Below, one piece after another: positions 8,000-34,645 of a stretch of 64,000 bases of DNA. The position numbers and the translations under genes were made by a program. The notes under the pieces were generated by a model. The model saw only the letters and a program-made list of their open reading frames with translations. It had not been told where the DNA came from and made no database searches. The stretch is from Coleofasciculaceae cyanobacterium (GTDB taxonomy: Bacteria; Cyanobacteriota; Cyanobacteriia; Cyanobacteriales; Xenococcaceae), in NCBI GenBank assembly GCA_036703275.1, contig DATNPK010000076.1, forward strand, positions 62,001 to 126,000. The letters are read 5' to 3'. Positions within the stretch are counted from its first letter, which is position 1, and every line of letters starts with the position of its first letter.

Positions 8000-10528
8000 C
8001 TAACTGCACACAAACGGATACACTCCAGTAATAATCTCATTCGTCTTAAGTTTACCAATTCTCTCACCTTGGCTATTTTTCTCGGTTTGTTTCAGACTGT
8101 TGACTGGTAAGACTAACCTGCGATCGATGCTAGTAGTTAAAATAATATTTTCTTCAGTAGTAGAAATAATTCCCGCTAGCATATCTTCCTTAGTCGTAAA
8201 TTGAATTGCCTGAGTTCCAATATCCCCTCGATTACCTAACCTCAAGGAGTTAACGGGAATACGTTTACCAAATCCCAACCGAGAAATTACGGCGAGAGAA
8301 TCATCAGAACTGACGTTACAGCAACCGACCAAACTTTCTTTCAATCTCAAACGCATGACTCGATTACCCTGAGCATTTCGTCCCATCAGCGGAATTTGAG
8401 TATCGTTGACTGGCAAACGTAAGATACGTCCTCCCGTAGTAGCGATCGCCATCTCGCGATTTTCTTGGGTAAAACAGAAGTACTTGAGGACATCTTGCTC
8501 TTTAAGCTTGACTAAAACTAATCCGCGATTACCCAAAGCGTCTAGTTCGGTGGCATCTAAACGTTTAATGATGCCTTTTTCAGTCAGCATTACTAAGTCC
8601 AAATCCTGATGATTTTCGCTCAGGAAGAAATGCGCCATCGTAGCGTTAGCGTCTCTTTGTGCTGCTGCTGATAAAAGTTCTACTGCGCGCAGCTCGGTAC
8701 TCTCCAGACTAGAGGGGACTTCTTCAATGGGAATTGGATAGGCTTTGCCACTATCGGTAACCACAATTAGCTGGTTGCGATCGCCAATAACTGCTTGATG
8801 CAGGATAAAATCTTCTCCTGCTTGAGGAACAGAATTATTGGCTTCAGTATCTTTGGCAGAATTTTCCCAATAAATACAGCCAGAGCTAGTAACTTTCAAT
8901 TTTGCCTGGGACGAACGTTCAAAAGTTAGACTAGAAGATACGGTTAAAGCAGGATCTTTTTTCGGAGACTTTTCCTGCTCAAGGGATTTTTGGGCGGTTG
9001 GTGCTGGCTTATCTTCGCTTACTTTTACATTAATAATGCGAGTCCGACGTTCATCACCAAACTTGCGCTTGAGAGAACGTAGTTCTTTTTTAAGCGACTT
9101 CATTAATTCTTGGCGATCGCCTAACACCTTATTTAGCTCGGCGATCCGCTCCTGTAGATCCGTCGACTCAGTTTCTAGCTTCTGCTTTTCTAAGCCTGTC
9201 AGACGACGCATCGGCATTGCCAAGATAGAATCTCCCTGAGTTGGAGAAAAGTCTAACTCATCTTGAAGACGTAACTTAGCCGTAGTTCCGTCAGGTGCAT
9301 GACGTAGAATCTCGATCACCGCATCAATTTGATTTAGAGCCAGTAATAGACCTTCAACCAAATGCAGCCTTTGATTTGCCTGTTCTAGTTCGTGGCTATA
9401 TTGTCTTCTTAAGGTATCTTCACGGAATTTAAGAAATTCTTCTAATATGTTGCGTAAAGGTAGCTGAAGTGGCTTATTATCTACCAATGCCAGCATAATT
9501 GTTCCAAAATTACTCTGTAAGGCAGTCTGGCGGTAGAGTTGGTGCAGAACTTTTTGAGCAGTAGCCTCTTTTCTTAATTCAATTACGACTCGCATCCCAC
9601 TGCGATCGCTCTCATCTCTGATATCAGAAATTCCCTCGATTCTTCCCTGATTGACTAACTCAGCAGTCTTTTCGATCCAGCCAGCTTTATTAACCTGATA
9701 GGGTAGCTCGGTAATTACGATCGCTTTCTTTTCTCTACGCCGTTTCTTCCCTGTAGCTATTTTCTCAATTTGGGCAATACCCCGCATTTTGATAATGCCT
9801 CTGCCAGTACGGTAGGCATCCTGAATCCCTGTAACTTCAACAATTTCACCTCCTGTAGGAAAATCAGGACCAGGGACTAATTGCCAGAGTTTTTCGTCGG
9901 TTATGGTCGGGCGATCGATCAAAGCAATTAAACCATCTACCACCTCACCTAAATTATGAGGCGGAATATTAGTCGCCATCCCTACAGCAATTCCCGAGCA
10001 GCCATTGAGCAGTAAAATTGGTAGCTGAACGGGTAAAACAATCGGCTCAGTTTGAGAGTTATCGAAGTTATTACTAAAGTTAACCGTCGCTTCCCCAATT
10101 TCTGTCAGCATGGCCTCAAAAGCAACGGGAGCAAGTCGGGTTTCGGTGTAGCGCATTGCTGCGGGGGGGTCATTATCTACCGAACCAAAGTTACCGTGAC
10201 CATCTAAAAGAGGATAGCGAGTTGAAAAACTCTGCACTAGACGCACCAAAGCATCATAAACTGACTGATCGCCATGAGGATGATATTTACCTAGAACATC
10301 TCCGACGACGCGAGCGCATTTACGGTAAGGGCGATCGGGAGTCAAGCCTAATTCATACATAGCATAGAGAATACGCCGATGTACGGGTTTTAATCCGTCT
10401 CTTACGTCAGGTAATGCCCTGCCGACTATAACGCTCATTGCATATTCAAGATATGACCTCTCCATTTCTTGGTGAAGAGGAGTAGGAATGATTTGACCAT
10501 TTCCTAACAAATTAAGCTGCTGTGCCAT
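8000..10528 (-). CDS. gyrA: Type IIA topoisomerase subunit A (gyrase A / topo IV A)
   Basis: This 842-residue breakage-reunion subunit changes DNA topology with a GyrB/ParE partner. Residues 15-500 form the catalytic core, with the QRDS-like region [16 protein letters not shown] and the active-site tyrosine Tyr127 in [11 protein letters not shown]. The C-terminal beta-pinwheel region is recognisable by repeated GNRGLVL-, GNRVMRL- and RLGNRGDI-like blades. A canonical GyrA box (QRRGGKG-like) is not visible in the first blade, which holds instead a long charged linker (about 505-545). Cyanobacteria often carry two A-type paralogues, so this could be the ParC-like one. The ATG at 10526-10528 precedes the usual MxQQ start. 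Confidence 0.9.
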
Positions 10529-27543: not shown

Positions 27544-27673
27544 AATCGCTTTCTGAATAATGGTTTGGGTGTAGTTTTAACTTTTTGGATTTGACTTCTA
27601 TGGGTATCTAGATCGGGGGTTCGCGCAATAGTAACGGCAAAGGCTTATCTAGATTGGGGTTAGAATAAACACT
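27544..27673 (+). promoter_or_regulatory. CRISPR leader
   Basis: A 130-base non-coding stretch lies between the hairpin and the first repeat, on the side where type I-C leaders lie (repeats end GGATTGAAAC in the + direction). T-rich runs (TAGTTTTAACTTTTTGGATT) and the repeated words TCTAGAT(C/T)GGGG occur in it. The array promoter is expected here; no box was assigned with certainty. Confidence 0.65.
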
Positions 27674-29004
27674 GTTGCGGTCGTCCTTCGGGGCGATCGA
27701 GGATTGAAACATCATAATTATGATCGATAATTTGTGTTGCTGTCAGTTGCGGTCGTCCTTCGGGGCGATCGAGGATTGAAACATGCCAACTATTTGAAAT
27801 GCACCGATCGAAAAGGTTGCGGTCGTCCTTCGGGGCGATCGAGGATTGAAACGTTAGATAATTTAATCCAACTATATTCGTCAGTTAAGTTGCGGTCGTC
27901 CTTCGGGGCGATCGAGGATTGAAACTAAAATTTCTTTAACATCTGAAAATACACTCATTTGGTTGCGGTCGTCCTTCGGGGCGATCGAGGATTGAAACTA
28001 ATCCAAAATCATGTGGATCATACCGTTCATAAGTTGCGGTCGTCCTTCGGGGCGATCGAGGATTGAAACTAGGTTTACAAGAATATTTAGATTGAGAGTA
28101 TAGGTTGCGGTCGTCCTTCGGGGCGATCGAGGATTGAAACAGTTATAGAAATACAAGGCAATATTGAATTTTGAGTTGCGGTCGTCCTTCGGGGCGATCG
28201 AGGATTGAAACATATTGACAAAATTAAACTGACTTAAAGTAAAGATTTTAGTTGCGGTCGTCCTTCGGGGCGATCGAGGATTGAAACACTTTCAAAGGTG
28301 TAGCAAAGCATAGAATTGCTCAAGTTGCGGTCGTCCTTCGGGGCGATCGAGGATTGAAACACTTTCAAAGGTGTAGCAAAGCATAGAATTGCTCAAGTTG
28401 CGGTCGTCCTTCGGGGCGATCGAGGATTGAAACAAAAATTACCGCATTTGAAGGAGTTTGAATGGATAAGTTGCGGTCGTCCTTCGGGGCGATCGAGGAT
28501 TGAAACTAAATTACCTTTTTCGTCTCTACTATCAAAAACTTTATGTTGCGGTCGTCCTTCGGGGCGATCGAGGATTGAAACTAATATTGGCTGTGCCATA
28601 CTATCAATATTATCTTGAGTAGTTGCGGTCGTCCTTCGGGGCGATCGAGGATTGAAACTTAAATGGAGAAACTTGGGCATTTGCAGCTAATGGTTGCGGT
28701 CGTCCTTCGGGGCGATCGAGGATTGAAACTTTTGCTCCTTGGTAGACTGAGAAGAGCTTTGGTTGCGGTCGTCCTTCAGGGCGATCGAGGATTGAAACAG
28801 GCTCTCCTGGTCGTCGGGGTAAATAATGTTCAGTTGCGGTCGTCCTTCGGGGCGATCGAGGATTGAAACAGGCAGATAGTTTAAAGAGAAGATCTACAGT
28901 GGCGCAGGTTGCGGTCGTCCTTCGGGGCGATCGAGGATTGAAACTTAAATGGAGAAACTTGGGCATTTGCAGCTAATGGTTGCGGTCGTCCTTCAGGGCG
29001 ATCG
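27674..29004 (+). CRISPR. Type I-C CRISPR array: 18 full repeats, 18 spacers, truncated last repeat
   Basis: The 37-nt repeat starts GTTGCGGTCG, has a central GTCC-TTCG-GGGC stem capped by a UUCG tetraloop, then CGATCG, and ends GGATTGAAAC. Full copies begin at 27674, 27746, 27816, 27889, 27962, 28033, 28104, 28175, 28251, 28324, 28397, 28470, 28545, 28622, 28693, 28762, 28833 and 28908. Spacers are 32-40 nt. Spacers 9 and 10 (28288 and 28361) are identical, as are spacers 14 and 18 (28659 and 28945). Repeat 16 carries one change (CTTCAGGG), also found in the last repeat (28979-29004), which stops after 26 nt. Leader-proximal spacers lie at the cas2 side. Confidence 0.99.
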
Positions 29005-29784: not shown

Positions 29785-30153
29785 TTAGTACGATCTCAAC
29801 TTATAAACTGGTTCAATCGCTACAACAGCAGGATCTTGCTCTAGTTGTGCTAATACCTCATAGGGGATATTGGCGGTAAAGATTAATGGACTGATTCTGG
29901 TACGAACTTCGACACTAGAAGGCACGTATCCTTCCTGAGAAACCTTAACTGTTGCCACAAAAGGCTCTTCTTGATTCAGCCCTCTTTGAGCTTCTCCACT
30001 TAACCTCAGCTTTGAATGTTGAGGAGTGACGTACTCAACCCTGTACTTTGAACTGTTATCTTGTTTGTCTGAAGACATGGTGTATTTAGATAGAGGTACA
30101 ACTAATATCAATATTGAACCTAACAAAATTATAACTTTGTACCATGCATTCAT
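29785..30153 (-). CDS. Membrane-anchored, subtilase-propeptide-like small protein
   Basis: A 122-residue protein with an N-terminal hydrophobic segment (WYKVIILLGSILILVVPL), a short polar linker and a small alpha/beta domain ending IPYEVLAQLEQDPAVVAIEP. That ending is the hallmark of I9-type propeptide/inhibitor domains, where the C-terminal tail enters the protease cleft. It starts 20 bases after the stop of the subtilisin-like gene, with a ribosome site (TAGGAG), so the two are co-transcribed. A chaperone or inhibitor acting in trans is an inference. Confidence 0.6.
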   Translation of the reverse strand: MNAWYKVIILLGSILILVVPLSKYTMSSDKQDNSSKYRVEYVTPQHSKLRLSGEAQRGLNQEEPFVATVKVSQEGYVPSSVEVRTRISPLIFTANIPYEVLAQLEQDPAVVAIEPVYKLRSY

Positions 30154-30173
30154 GAGCTAACTCCTACTACAGA

Positions 30174-31964
30174 TCACCCGCGTACTTGCTGTACCGATGC
30201 GCTTGCATCCACTCGTCCATTACCGTAGCGGTCATCCCACGCCATACTAGGTGGATTTGAGCGCGCATTCTTAGCTAAAATGTCACGAATTTGTTCAACC
30301 GTAAGCTCTTTATTTAGACTACGGGCTTCGGCCAGCACAAGGGCTACAACTCCAGTGACGGCAGGAGCAGCCATACTGGTTCCTGACATACGGGTAATCC
30401 CTACCCGTGTTGATGAATTAGCAGCCCAGACATTATGTCCAGGTGCGCTGATTTCTGGTTTTTGTCTTCCATCTCTGGTCGGTCCAGCACTAGAGAACCA
30501 AGATAGGGGTTGTCCAGCCGTGTGAGCATCGTACGAACCCACGACTATGTTGTGCTGTCCGCAGGAAATTGAGCCGAGAGTATGAGAATTATCATGGGGA
30601 GGAGCAAAACTAGACTGTCCAGGATCGTCTCGTTCGATCCAGGCATGAAATTGACCGTTATTGATCGCAACACCATGCAGACGAAGCTTAAGCTCTGTCG
30701 GTAGACTCGAAGACATAGCCCTAGTATTCATGAAAATCCCAATGGTATTGTCGCCATTGTTAGGATCTCCTTGGCGATGGGCAGCGAAAAAGAGTAGCTC
30801 GTTTGCCTCGTTGAAAATCTCCGCCGAAGCACCTAAGTCTACTGTGCCAATACTTTGCTCATCTTGATCGATCAACTCTAGCTGTAGCTGGTCATCTTTG
30901 CTGTACCAGATTTCAAGTTCGTTATGAGTAAAATCAAATTGACCGATTTGCCAGATAAGATCGACGAAGCTTCCTTCCGTAACCTGACCACTGGCATGAA
31001 TTCCGTCATTGTAAGAGTTACTAGCTGCAATAACTACAGCGCGGTTAGGTTGGGCAGTGACAACCGCATCAATTCCCTGTTCGACCAGGTTGGTGCCGTC
31101 ATGAGGACCACCATTAGTTCCCAGACTAATATTAATTACACAAGGTTGGTTTCCAGCTTGCTCAAAAATAAATTGGATTGCCTCTAGGAGTTGTACCGAA
31201 CCTCCAAAATTAGAGTCAATCACCTCAGTCCCTTCCCAAGCTATGTCACTGGCACTGATTTGGACAAAAATTATATCTGCATTGGGAGCAACACCTGGGA
31301 CACGGCTACCGTTGCCATTACCACAAGCAATATCCATCACATGAGTTCCATGACTTGCCCTGCCAGGATCGTAGCCCAAGCTAAGATAGGGTTCTGATGA
31401 GCGTAGTGCAGCATTAATGTCAGTTTGAGTGTAAACTTTACCGTATCCAAAAGGACTGGAGCCTTCAGATAAGGCGGTCTGATCCCAAAGTGCTAGAATG
31501 CGAGTACTGCCATCAGGATTACGAAAGTTATTATGGAGAAAATCACATCCGTAATCAATGATACCAACAACAACACCTTTTCCCTGTTGTCCTTGAGCAG
31601 AAGGAGGTAGCAAATCTACCCGCGCTTTGATTTCTTCAATTGTGGACTTTAGTGTTGGTTTGAGGAGTTGAGTTGCTTTTAGACTTTGGACGTAGGGAAG
31701 TTGTCGTAGTATTTGCACTCGGTCGAGCGGTATTCTGGCGGTCACAATATTAGCATCATCAGGTGTAGTTCCAAGATTAGCTCCTGGAAAAACTTCGCTT
31801 CGATTTAGCCAGCTTGTTAGATTGGAAACCTTAGCAATAACCGCAATTTCTCCTTTTGCTGTTGAGGATGTGACAGGAGGCACTATTCCTCTAGCTCTGC
31901 GAGCCAAATCCACTTGTATTCTTGGATCAATTTCAGTAAAAACTTCTTGCAATTGTATCCGCAT
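30174..31964 (-). CDS. Subtilisin-like serine protease (S8 family)
   Basis: A 596-residue protease with the full catalytic triad: Asp in GVVVGIIDYGCDFLH, His in RASHGTHVMDIACG, and Ser in RMSGTSMAAPAVTGVVAL. The oxyanion Asn is in VVIAASNSYNDG. An insert of about 130 residues lies between the Asn and Ser blocks. Residues about 40-105 resemble an I9 propeptide (ANIVTARIPLDRVQILRQLPYVQSL). No signal peptide is visible, so it is either cytosolic or exported by another path. It is the first gene of a pair with the propeptide-like protein. Confidence 0.92.
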   Translation of the reverse strand: MRIQLQEVFTEIDPRIQVDLARRARGIVPPVTSSTAKGEIAVIAKVSNLTSWLNRSEVFPGANLGTTPDDANIVTARIPLDRVQILRQLPYVQSLKATQLLKPTLKSTIEEIKARVDLLPPSAQGQQGKGVVVGIIDYGCDFLHNNFRNPDGSTRILALWDQTALSEGSSPFGYGKVYTQTDINAALRSSEPYLSLGYDPGRASHGTHVMDIACGNGNGSRVPGVAPNADIIFVQISASDIAWEGTEVIDSNFGGSVQLLEAIQFIFEQAGNQPCVINISLGTNGGPHDGTNLVEQGIDAVVTAQPNRAVVIAASNSYNDGIHASGQVTEGSFVDLIWQIGQFDFTHNELEIWYSKDDQLQLELIDQDEQSIGTVDLGASAEIFNEANELLFFAAHRQGDPNNGDNTIGIFMNTRAMSSSLPTELKLRLHGVAINNGQFHAWIERDDPGQSSFAPPHDNSHTLGSISCGQHNIVVGSYDAHTAGQPLSWFSSAGPTRDGRQKPEISAPGHNVWAANSSTRVGITRMSGTSMAAPAVTGVVALVLAEARSLNKELTVEQIRDILAKNARSNPPSMAWDDRYGNGRVDASASVQQVRG

Positions 31965-33419: not shown

Positions 33420-33653
33420 TTATGTACAGTTTTGTAATTTGACATAATCTTCATTGAAAGACAAAGCTTTTAAAAGATTTTCACTCGTCGTAGTCCAACC
33501 CACAATTCCTCCTTGAGCGCGAATCATCTCTAAGGTAGATTTTTTAAATTCAGGAAAATAGCTGGCGGTGGCATCTTCAACTAACAAACATTCATAACCG
33601 CGATCATTAGCTTCGCCCATGGTTGTCTGTACGCAAACCTCAGTAGTAATCAT
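33420..33653 (-). pseudogene. Isochorismatase/biuret-hydrolase-like cysteine hydrolase, C-terminal fragment
   Basis: The 77 codons keep the C-terminal half of an isochorismatase-like amidohydrolase: [20 protein letters not shown] (with the catalytic Cys) and [20 protein letters not shown] followed by [14 protein letters not shown], closest in pattern to biuret hydrolases. The N-terminal half with the catalytic Asp and Lys is absent upstream, so the enzyme is dead. Its location beside nucleoside transport and xanthine dehydrogenase genes suggests it belonged to the same nitrogen-scavenging locus. Confidence 0.75.
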
Positions 33654-33985: not shown

Positions 33986-34645
33986 TGCCTGATAGATTGC
34001 ACCGTTTACTAAAATTTCTCCACAGATAGCCGAACGCTGACCTAATAGTATTTCTACCAGTTCTTTTTGCCCATTCCTTGATATTCCTGCAATCCCAACA
34101 ATTTCACCGCTATTTACTGTTAGATTTACGCCTTTAACTGCTGGAAGTCTATCATCTCGATCAGCGAAACATTTTTCATTTCTAAAACAGTTTTACTAAC
34201 AGAAATTACTGTTTTTTCGATCTGTTGCAACTCGCCCTTTTCACCCATCATCATTTCGGCTAAGTCAGCAATATTTTAAATCTTTGACTAAGCCATTTCC
34301 GGCTAACTTGCCTTTACGCAATACGCTGACTTCATCGCAGAAAGCCATTACTTCTAAAATTAAAATGCGACACTTATGAGCATCACGGGTACTATTAATT
34401 TGACACGATCGCCGGTCAATAACTACTTCACCCTCAGTAGGCTGATAAAAACCCATAATGCACTTGACCAAAGTGCATTTACCTGCTCCGTTTTCTCCTA
34501 ATAAAGCCCGAACAGTTCCTGGCTTGATTTTCATGGTTACGCGATCGAGAGCCACAAAACTACCAAACCTCTTGGACATATTAACCGTCTCTAATGCTGG
34601 AAGCATCTTGGTATGGTTCTGGTTGCTTGCAGTCATAGCCCTCAT
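33985..34645 (-). pseudogene. Nucleoside-type ABC importer ATPase (YufO/NupA-like), broken
   Basis: The first ATPase domain begins LETVNMSKRFGSFVALDRVT and has a Walker A reading GENGAGKCTLVK, with Cys for the usual Ser. A large internal deletion joins DAHKC to RILILEVMAFCDEVSVLRKG, removing the signature and Walker B motifs. A frameshift follows, then the start of the second domain (VNSGEIVGIAGISRNGQKEL), ending at the IS200/IS605-like end near 33985. The duplicated-domain layout is that of BmpA-linked nucleoside importers. Confidence 0.75.

Follow-up and report, generated by a model that had tools for sequence, protein, structure and literature searches.

Why is a subtilase that already carries a prodomain of its own encoded next to what looks like a second, free-standing one? 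This question is raised by a gene pair in the window, i.e. the whole stretch of 64,000 nucleotides of cyanobacterial DNA analysed here. That the protease already has one counts against a second lock, which needs explaining. Still, the best explanation is that the small protein serves as a free-standing inhibitor of the propeptide (I9) type, specific to the S8 protease whose gene precedes its own.

Both genes, with all their features given below, lie on the minus strand. The first gene (30174..31964) encodes an S8 (subtilase) protease of 596 aa, and the downstream gene (29785..30153) a partner of 122 aa in which, based on the ORF, an AlphaFold2 (AF2) model, VIA-align and Kyte-Doolittle values, a hydrophobic helix and a linker precede a stand-alone I9-like domain. 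The two ORFs are located where the original prediction had placed its gene pair. They are separated by 20 nt (30154..30173) with a Shine-Dalgarno-like AGGAG before the partner, and a promoter search gave nothing above shuffled sequences. The three close homologues of the protease (83-87% identity), in Pleurocapsales LEGE 06147 (L033), Petrachloros mirabilis (L034) and a Scytonema MAG (L035), are all followed by a partner of 121-123 aa after a gap of only 10 nt, with the S8 stop codon falling inside the Shine-Dalgarno-like site. For L034, the partner was taken from the ATG at 9805, the longer frame starting at 9700; the partner proteins of L004 and L033 are identical and were counted once.

Could the small ORF be spurious, or simply a chance neighbour of the protease gene? 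The 122-aa protein, searched as a single sequence, matches nothing in Pfam, NCBIfam, PADLOC or the PDB, as might be expected for such an ORF. However, within the window clade (the window and L033-L035) its dN/dS is 0.19-0.30 in all six pairwise comparisons and that of the protease is 0.06-0.15; judged by these ratios, both genes are under purifying selection, and the partner is a real gene because its ratios are this low in every pair. Gene order and spacing are also conserved in L033-L035, and in a second branch of the protease family the two genes co-occur in 15 of 16 genomes (see below). Thus, we regard the chance explanation as refuted, with next to no probability left to it.

The protease matches PF00082 above the Pfam cut-off (E 1.3e-33). 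The codons for the catalytic residues Asp137 (31554..31556), His205 (31350..31352) and Ser530 (30375..30377, in the motif GTSMAAP) and for the oxyanion Asn316 (31017..31019) specify residues that are invariant in all 16 aligned S8 sequences and, with the triad and the oxyanion Asn in a subtilase domain, the protein is by sequence an S8 subtilase. In the first 60 aa, the highest 17-residue Kyte-Doolittle mean is 0.92 and, because of this low maximum, the protease has no hydrophobic leader by this measure, in line with the original prediction, which had seen no signal peptide. Its best PDB sequence match is CspB (4i0w, E 3.4e-35), which makes the Csp germination proteases its closest solved relatives by sequence. 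Csp proteases have a jellyroll insertion of about 130 residues within the subtilase domain (PMC3567191), and the cyanobacterial protease probably has an insertion at this position between the two halves of the domain (residues ~330-455, 30600..30977, these limits being approximate estimates), through which the sequence alignment with CspB continues. The scores against the NCBIfam Csp models, 152.7 of 1250 bits (CspBA) and 111.5 of 675 bits (CspC), are far below both cut-offs. An AF2 model of the protease from four sequences reached a pLDDT of 31.6.

Like the Csp proteases, this protease appears to have its own N-terminal prodomain (residues ~36-104, 31653..31859). A profile of 22 partners compared with the 16 S8 N-terminal segments using hhalign gave a probability of 96.5% and an E of 8.5e-10 in this single comparison, and the claim that the protease itself contains a propeptide-like segment is thereby borne out. 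A PDB search with the N-terminal segment of the window protease alone gave only two weak matches, one to an invasin (E 0.2) and one to a ribosomal protein (E 1.1), so that it is identified as a prodomain by its similarity to the partners and by its position. At the position 12 residues past the conserved Val/Ile of this segment, the next residue is Leu in 12/16 and Met in 4/16 of the S8 sequences, and from this register the protease probably cleaves itself after about residue 104.

The presence of this segment bears on the possibility that the partner is mainly a folding helper acting in trans, i.e. a foldase and not a regulator. In favour of this, the CspB prodomain supplied in trans acts as a chaperone that restores folding; it also blocks CspB (PMC3567191). 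However, a prodomain-like segment is present in all 16 aligned S8 sequences and an additional foldase therefore seems unneeded, and foldases of the I9 type are normally inhibitors as well. We consider a primarily chaperoning partner improbable.

What fold does the partner have? AF2, given the four window-clade sequences, returned five models, the best with a mean pLDDT of 61.8 and the other four with 37.6-41.6. In the best model, residues 61-110 have pLDDT values of 75-83 (in blocks of ten) and are arranged as strand-strand-strand-helix-strand, while the mean is 66 for residues 111-120 and values below 50 are seen at residues 17-47 and 119-122. The top Foldseek matches of this model are subtilase propeptides, none at E<=0.001. 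Using VIA-align, the first 40 of the 50 matches listed are subtilase propeptide regions or POIA1 at Z 6.7-4.1 and the first unrelated fold among those listed is at Z 4.0, values to be read with the tool's caution that a Z below 8 may reflect a shared arrangement. The I9-like domain covers residues 63-122 (29788..29967): residues 64-122 of the model align with residues 7-77 of the BPN' prosegment, and residues 63-122 with residues 1-76 of POIA1. In the structural alignment, the C-terminus of the partner, in which residues 119-122 have pLDDT values below 50, coincides with the C-termini of cleaved propeptides. At the level of profiles, 28 partners together retrieved four PDB sequences and no others at E<=10, each a propeptide-length chain (78-112 aa) from a subtilase entry, the best at E 0.043; 0/28 partners reached the cut-off of the Pfam I9 family (PF05922) and 1/28 matched it weakly (E 0.12). 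Overall, the partner is predicted, from one AF2 model that was the best of five, to have an I9-like propeptide fold, as originally proposed.

The partners differ in where they end. Nine of the 22, namely all four from the window clade, three from rhizobia and those of L006 and L009, stop 11-13 residues past the conserved Val/Ile; because the other 13 run 15-23 residues past it, an end at P1 is not general for these proteins. In a tree of I9 domains, which are too short for the tree to carry weight, the partners of the window, L050, Sphingobium and the rhizobia group together (support 0.85) and apart from the prodomains of their own proteases, and the L006 partner joins the prodomain of its own protease (0.96). 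Because of the latter placement, the tree lends no support to a common origin of every partner.

The pair is not confined to the window clade. S8 relatives with 49-51% identity are present in the Nostocaceae-type genome G405 (L050), Sphingobium (L038), Agrobacterium (L039) and Rhizobium (L040, L041), and at these loci and in R. etli Mim1, the last counted by position only, a gene for an I9-like protein of 84-103 aa is directly downstream of the S8 gene. In total, an adjacent I9-like partner is present at 10 of the 12 S8 loci of at least 46% identity, the window included, in cyanobacteria and Alphaproteobacteria, so that the conservation on which the idea of a functional pair depended was found. 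The two loci lacking an adjacent partner are L042 of Paenibacillus, with an IS3-type transposase gene following the S8 gene, and L005. At L006 (S8 37% identical), a 90-aa partner is encoded upstream, and in the actinomycete Embleya the pair is present by position. No adjacent partner was found at the more distant S8 loci L007, L043, L051, L052, L053 and L060-L064, and at the distant loci L044, L045, L046, L048 and L049 no ORF of 40-260 aa matched the partner profile at E 1. A profile built from 13 partners, which themselves match by construction, detected partners at nine further loci of the pair's S8 group (L047, L050, L054-L059 and L065; L036 repeats L050) and nothing significant at 21 generic S8 loci (L012-L032), the lone match being that of L031 at E 0.84. 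Among 386 cyanobacterial genomes, the window-type partner is credible in two, the window's own (G000) and G405, and the S8 gene adjoins it in both; a third genome, G422, gave a weak match (E 0.009) that is interrupted by five stops. Because the pair recurs in unrelated bacteria, the partner is probably the protease's own inhibitor. As a separate observation, the S8 relatives of L051, L052, L049 and L045 are located inside very long ORFs (~980 to 1,860 aa), and these ORFs come after genes for small proteins that are acidic or hydrophobic and in some cases have PASTA-like repeats (by reading).

A second branch of S8 proteases, 30-33% identical to that of the window, offers a further test of the pairing. 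In the 386 genomes, a second-branch S8 is present in 16 and the matching type of partner in 15, with an overlap of 15; G226 (L061) is the only genome with this S8 in which no partner was found. Fisher's test gives p 4e-26 over all 386 genomes, a significance that is inflated by relatedness, and p 8e-6 within one family, with nine negative genomes among those listed. In 9/15 genomes, the S8 match is followed at 72-409 nt by a partner of equal orientation. In the remaining 6/15 (L007/G030, L053/G284, L060/G379, L062/G436, L063/G400 and L064/G220) it is at a distance of 3.2 kb, 39 kb, 0.5 Mb or 1.5 Mb, and in two genomes on a separate contig, and the sequence stretches around these six partners contain no S8 match. 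This persistence without adjacency suggests that the partner acts in trans. L009 and L011, which are outside the 386-genome draw, also have an adjacent partner; in L011 (1489-3332) the second-branch S8 gene is split into two frames, as if broken, and the partner is intact. In L073, L076 and L078, the second-branch partner adjoins a glgC-like gene (by reading) and the S8 gene is elsewhere.

The partner of the window begins with a hydrophobic helix (residues 4-22, 30088..30144), modelled by AF2 with low confidence; the hydrophobic stretch at residues 7-23 has a Kyte-Doolittle mean of 2.48. Such a stretch is present in 4/22 partners, all of the window clade (17-residue means 2.35-2.50), and the other 18 peak at no more than 1.49 and look soluble. 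Going by these profiles, the hydrophobic N-terminus is a lineage-specific feature, and the membrane anchor of the original prediction holds for the window clade (4/4) but not as a general trait. The helix may be an uncleaved anchor or a signal peptide, and in either case it would place the partner of this clade at or across the membrane. In 4/4 window-clade partners, the N-terminal flank of the stretch has the higher charge, by a margin of one charge in three of them; this bias favours an N-in orientation, in which the I9 domain would be outside, or a signal peptide.

How a protease that has no leader would meet an inhibitor on the outside is the real puzzle. An I9 domain on the outside counts against an inhibitory function, because a protease without a leader would miss it unless it were exported. 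Another reading is that the anchored partner is a localization tether, with the I9 domain docking the protease at the membrane for membrane substrates or being freed by a cut in the tether. The hydrophobic N-terminus is kept in all four window-clade partners, as a tether would demand, but the weak charge bias favours the wrong side of the membrane and, with 18/22 partners having no hydrophobic stretch, tethering cannot be the shared function; we find this reading unlikely. We give about the same small chance to a checkpoint like that of PopC and PopD, in which a leaderless subtilase would be held by its partner and exported or released upon a starvation signal. In Myxococcus xanthus, PopC has no signal peptide and accumulates in the periplasm, while PopD forms a complex with PopC and inhibits its secretion in non-starving cells (PMC6434023). 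A similar arrangement would account for a leaderless protease together with an outward-facing inhibitor. The likeness of a leaderless subtilase with a restraining partner is one of described behaviour only and, unlike the S8 protease with its prodomain-like segment, PopC is described in PMC6434023 as having no recognizable domains in its N-terminal part. A somewhat broader scheme, still on the unlikely side, is that leaderless Csp-type subtilases are widely controlled by a second, free-standing propeptide and that, in the window clade, this propeptide has acquired a membrane leader and, placed at or beyond the membrane, captures a protease exported without a signal peptide, giving a switch that crosses compartments.

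We think it likely that the partner inhibits the S8 protease, and we suggest the following model, in which binding, inhibition and release upon removal of the partner are steps that we infer by analogy. The protease would fold with its own N-terminal prodomain, which would be self-cleaved and may stay bound, as in CspB, where the prodomain stays bound and its last three residues block the active site (PMC3567191). Because its fold and register match the protease's own prodomain, the C-terminus of the partner should fill the same cleft, its last residues entering the active site as a product-like plug. In other words, the partner would be a second lock, provided in trans, on a protease whose own prodomain has been displaced or degraded, and its removal would release the protease.

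A few eukaryotes are known to have inhibitors that resemble a propeptide and stand alone. POIA1 and the yeast peptidase B inhibitor are stand-alone members of MEROPS I9 to which the partner can be likened by fold; for instance, the POIA1-subtilisin complex (1v5i) aligns with the partner model at Z 5.6 over 60 residues with an rmsd of 2.4. They differ in that no significant sequence similarity was found and that the partner is bacterial and encoded with its protease. The closest proven analogue is SUB1-ProM, a small protein with an I9 fold that is encoded beside Plasmodium subtilase genes, resembles the protease's own propeptide and inhibits SUB1 (PMC6993865). By contrast to this eukaryotic protein, for which inhibition is proven, inhibition by the window partner is deduced, and the partner is part of an operon-like pair and, in the window clade, has a hydrophobic N-terminus. 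The Csp proteases differ in turn from the cyanobacterial protease, which has a separate I9 partner gene beside it. Protein-based peptidase inhibitors are described as relatively sparse in prokaryotes (PMC6993865), and in the open-licence PMC literature searched we found no bacterial S8 protease described as having a stand-alone I9 partner.

Does the pair instead belong to phage defence, as the original prediction had also considered? In the window, it is adjoined by a CRISPR array with at least 18 repeats (27671-29004), preceded by cas-like genes (type I-C by reading). Some spacers of this array are repeated: the unit at 28250 recurs without a change over 73 nt at 28323, and that at 28622 is 99% identical over 97 nt to that at 28908. 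An anti-phage module of a protease and its antitoxin would also fit with the match of the S8 protease to the PADLOC "subtilase" model (E 1.7e-25), a CHAT-domain gene that in L040 is the second gene upstream of the pair, the location of distant S8 relatives lacking a detected partner near caspase, MBL or Shedu-annotated genes, and the presence of S8 relatives in 66 plasmid records. However, the 17.8-kb stretches around each of L033, L034 and L035 contain no CRISPR-like array, so that an array is beside one of the four window-clade pairs and a link of the pair to it is unsupported; the examined neighbours of these homologues are mostly transport genes and a porin, together with a haemocyanin-like gene, and the PADLOC models were listed without a cut-off, S8 domains being common. 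For the window clade, the phage link was not borne out, and we regard a defence module as very unlikely. One scan of viral contigs with a rhizobial S8 found no relative.

Further genes were noted around the pair and its relatives. At all three annotated loci on rhizobial plasmids, the gene next after the pair is PLD-like, and the L041 protein has weak PADLOC similarity to DrmC-type PLD proteins. In L046 and L048, also rhizobial plasmids, the gene of a distant S8 relative and an MBL-fold gene share a few bases; the MBL protein of L046 has matches to the PADLOC models LmuA, Avs1a and RTasMBL, and a caspase gene is near the S8 gene in L046 and a Shedu-annotated gene near that in L048. Just after the Petrachloros pair (L034, 10340-13072) are genes for a haemocyanin-like protein (PF00372, PF03723) and for a member of a small protein family that has no Pfam match and occurs in 107 plasmid records, almost all of them from rhizobia. 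The haemocyanin-like protein has relatives in two plasmid records, both of Rhizobium indicum, and in both ~1.5 kb from a distant S8 relative. The haemocyanin-like gene suggested a phenoloxidase-like system, but no such gene was noticed among the ORFs listed for L033, L035 and the window. At 33420-33653 and 34265-34645, the window contains short isochorismatase and ABC-transporter pieces that are probably gene remnants.

Cyanobacteria are not known to form endospores. The Csp-like architecture of the cyanobacterial protease points to a wider type of bacterial protease that would include the germination proteases. The partner family accompanies one protease group in three phyla or more, one of them represented by an actinomycete counted by position. 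As dedicated inhibitors, its members would offer a system for studying how leaderless subtilases stay safe and are switched on, and would assign a likely function to small "hypothetical" genes that adjoin S8 genes in cyanobacterial genomes and on the plasmids of rhizobia.
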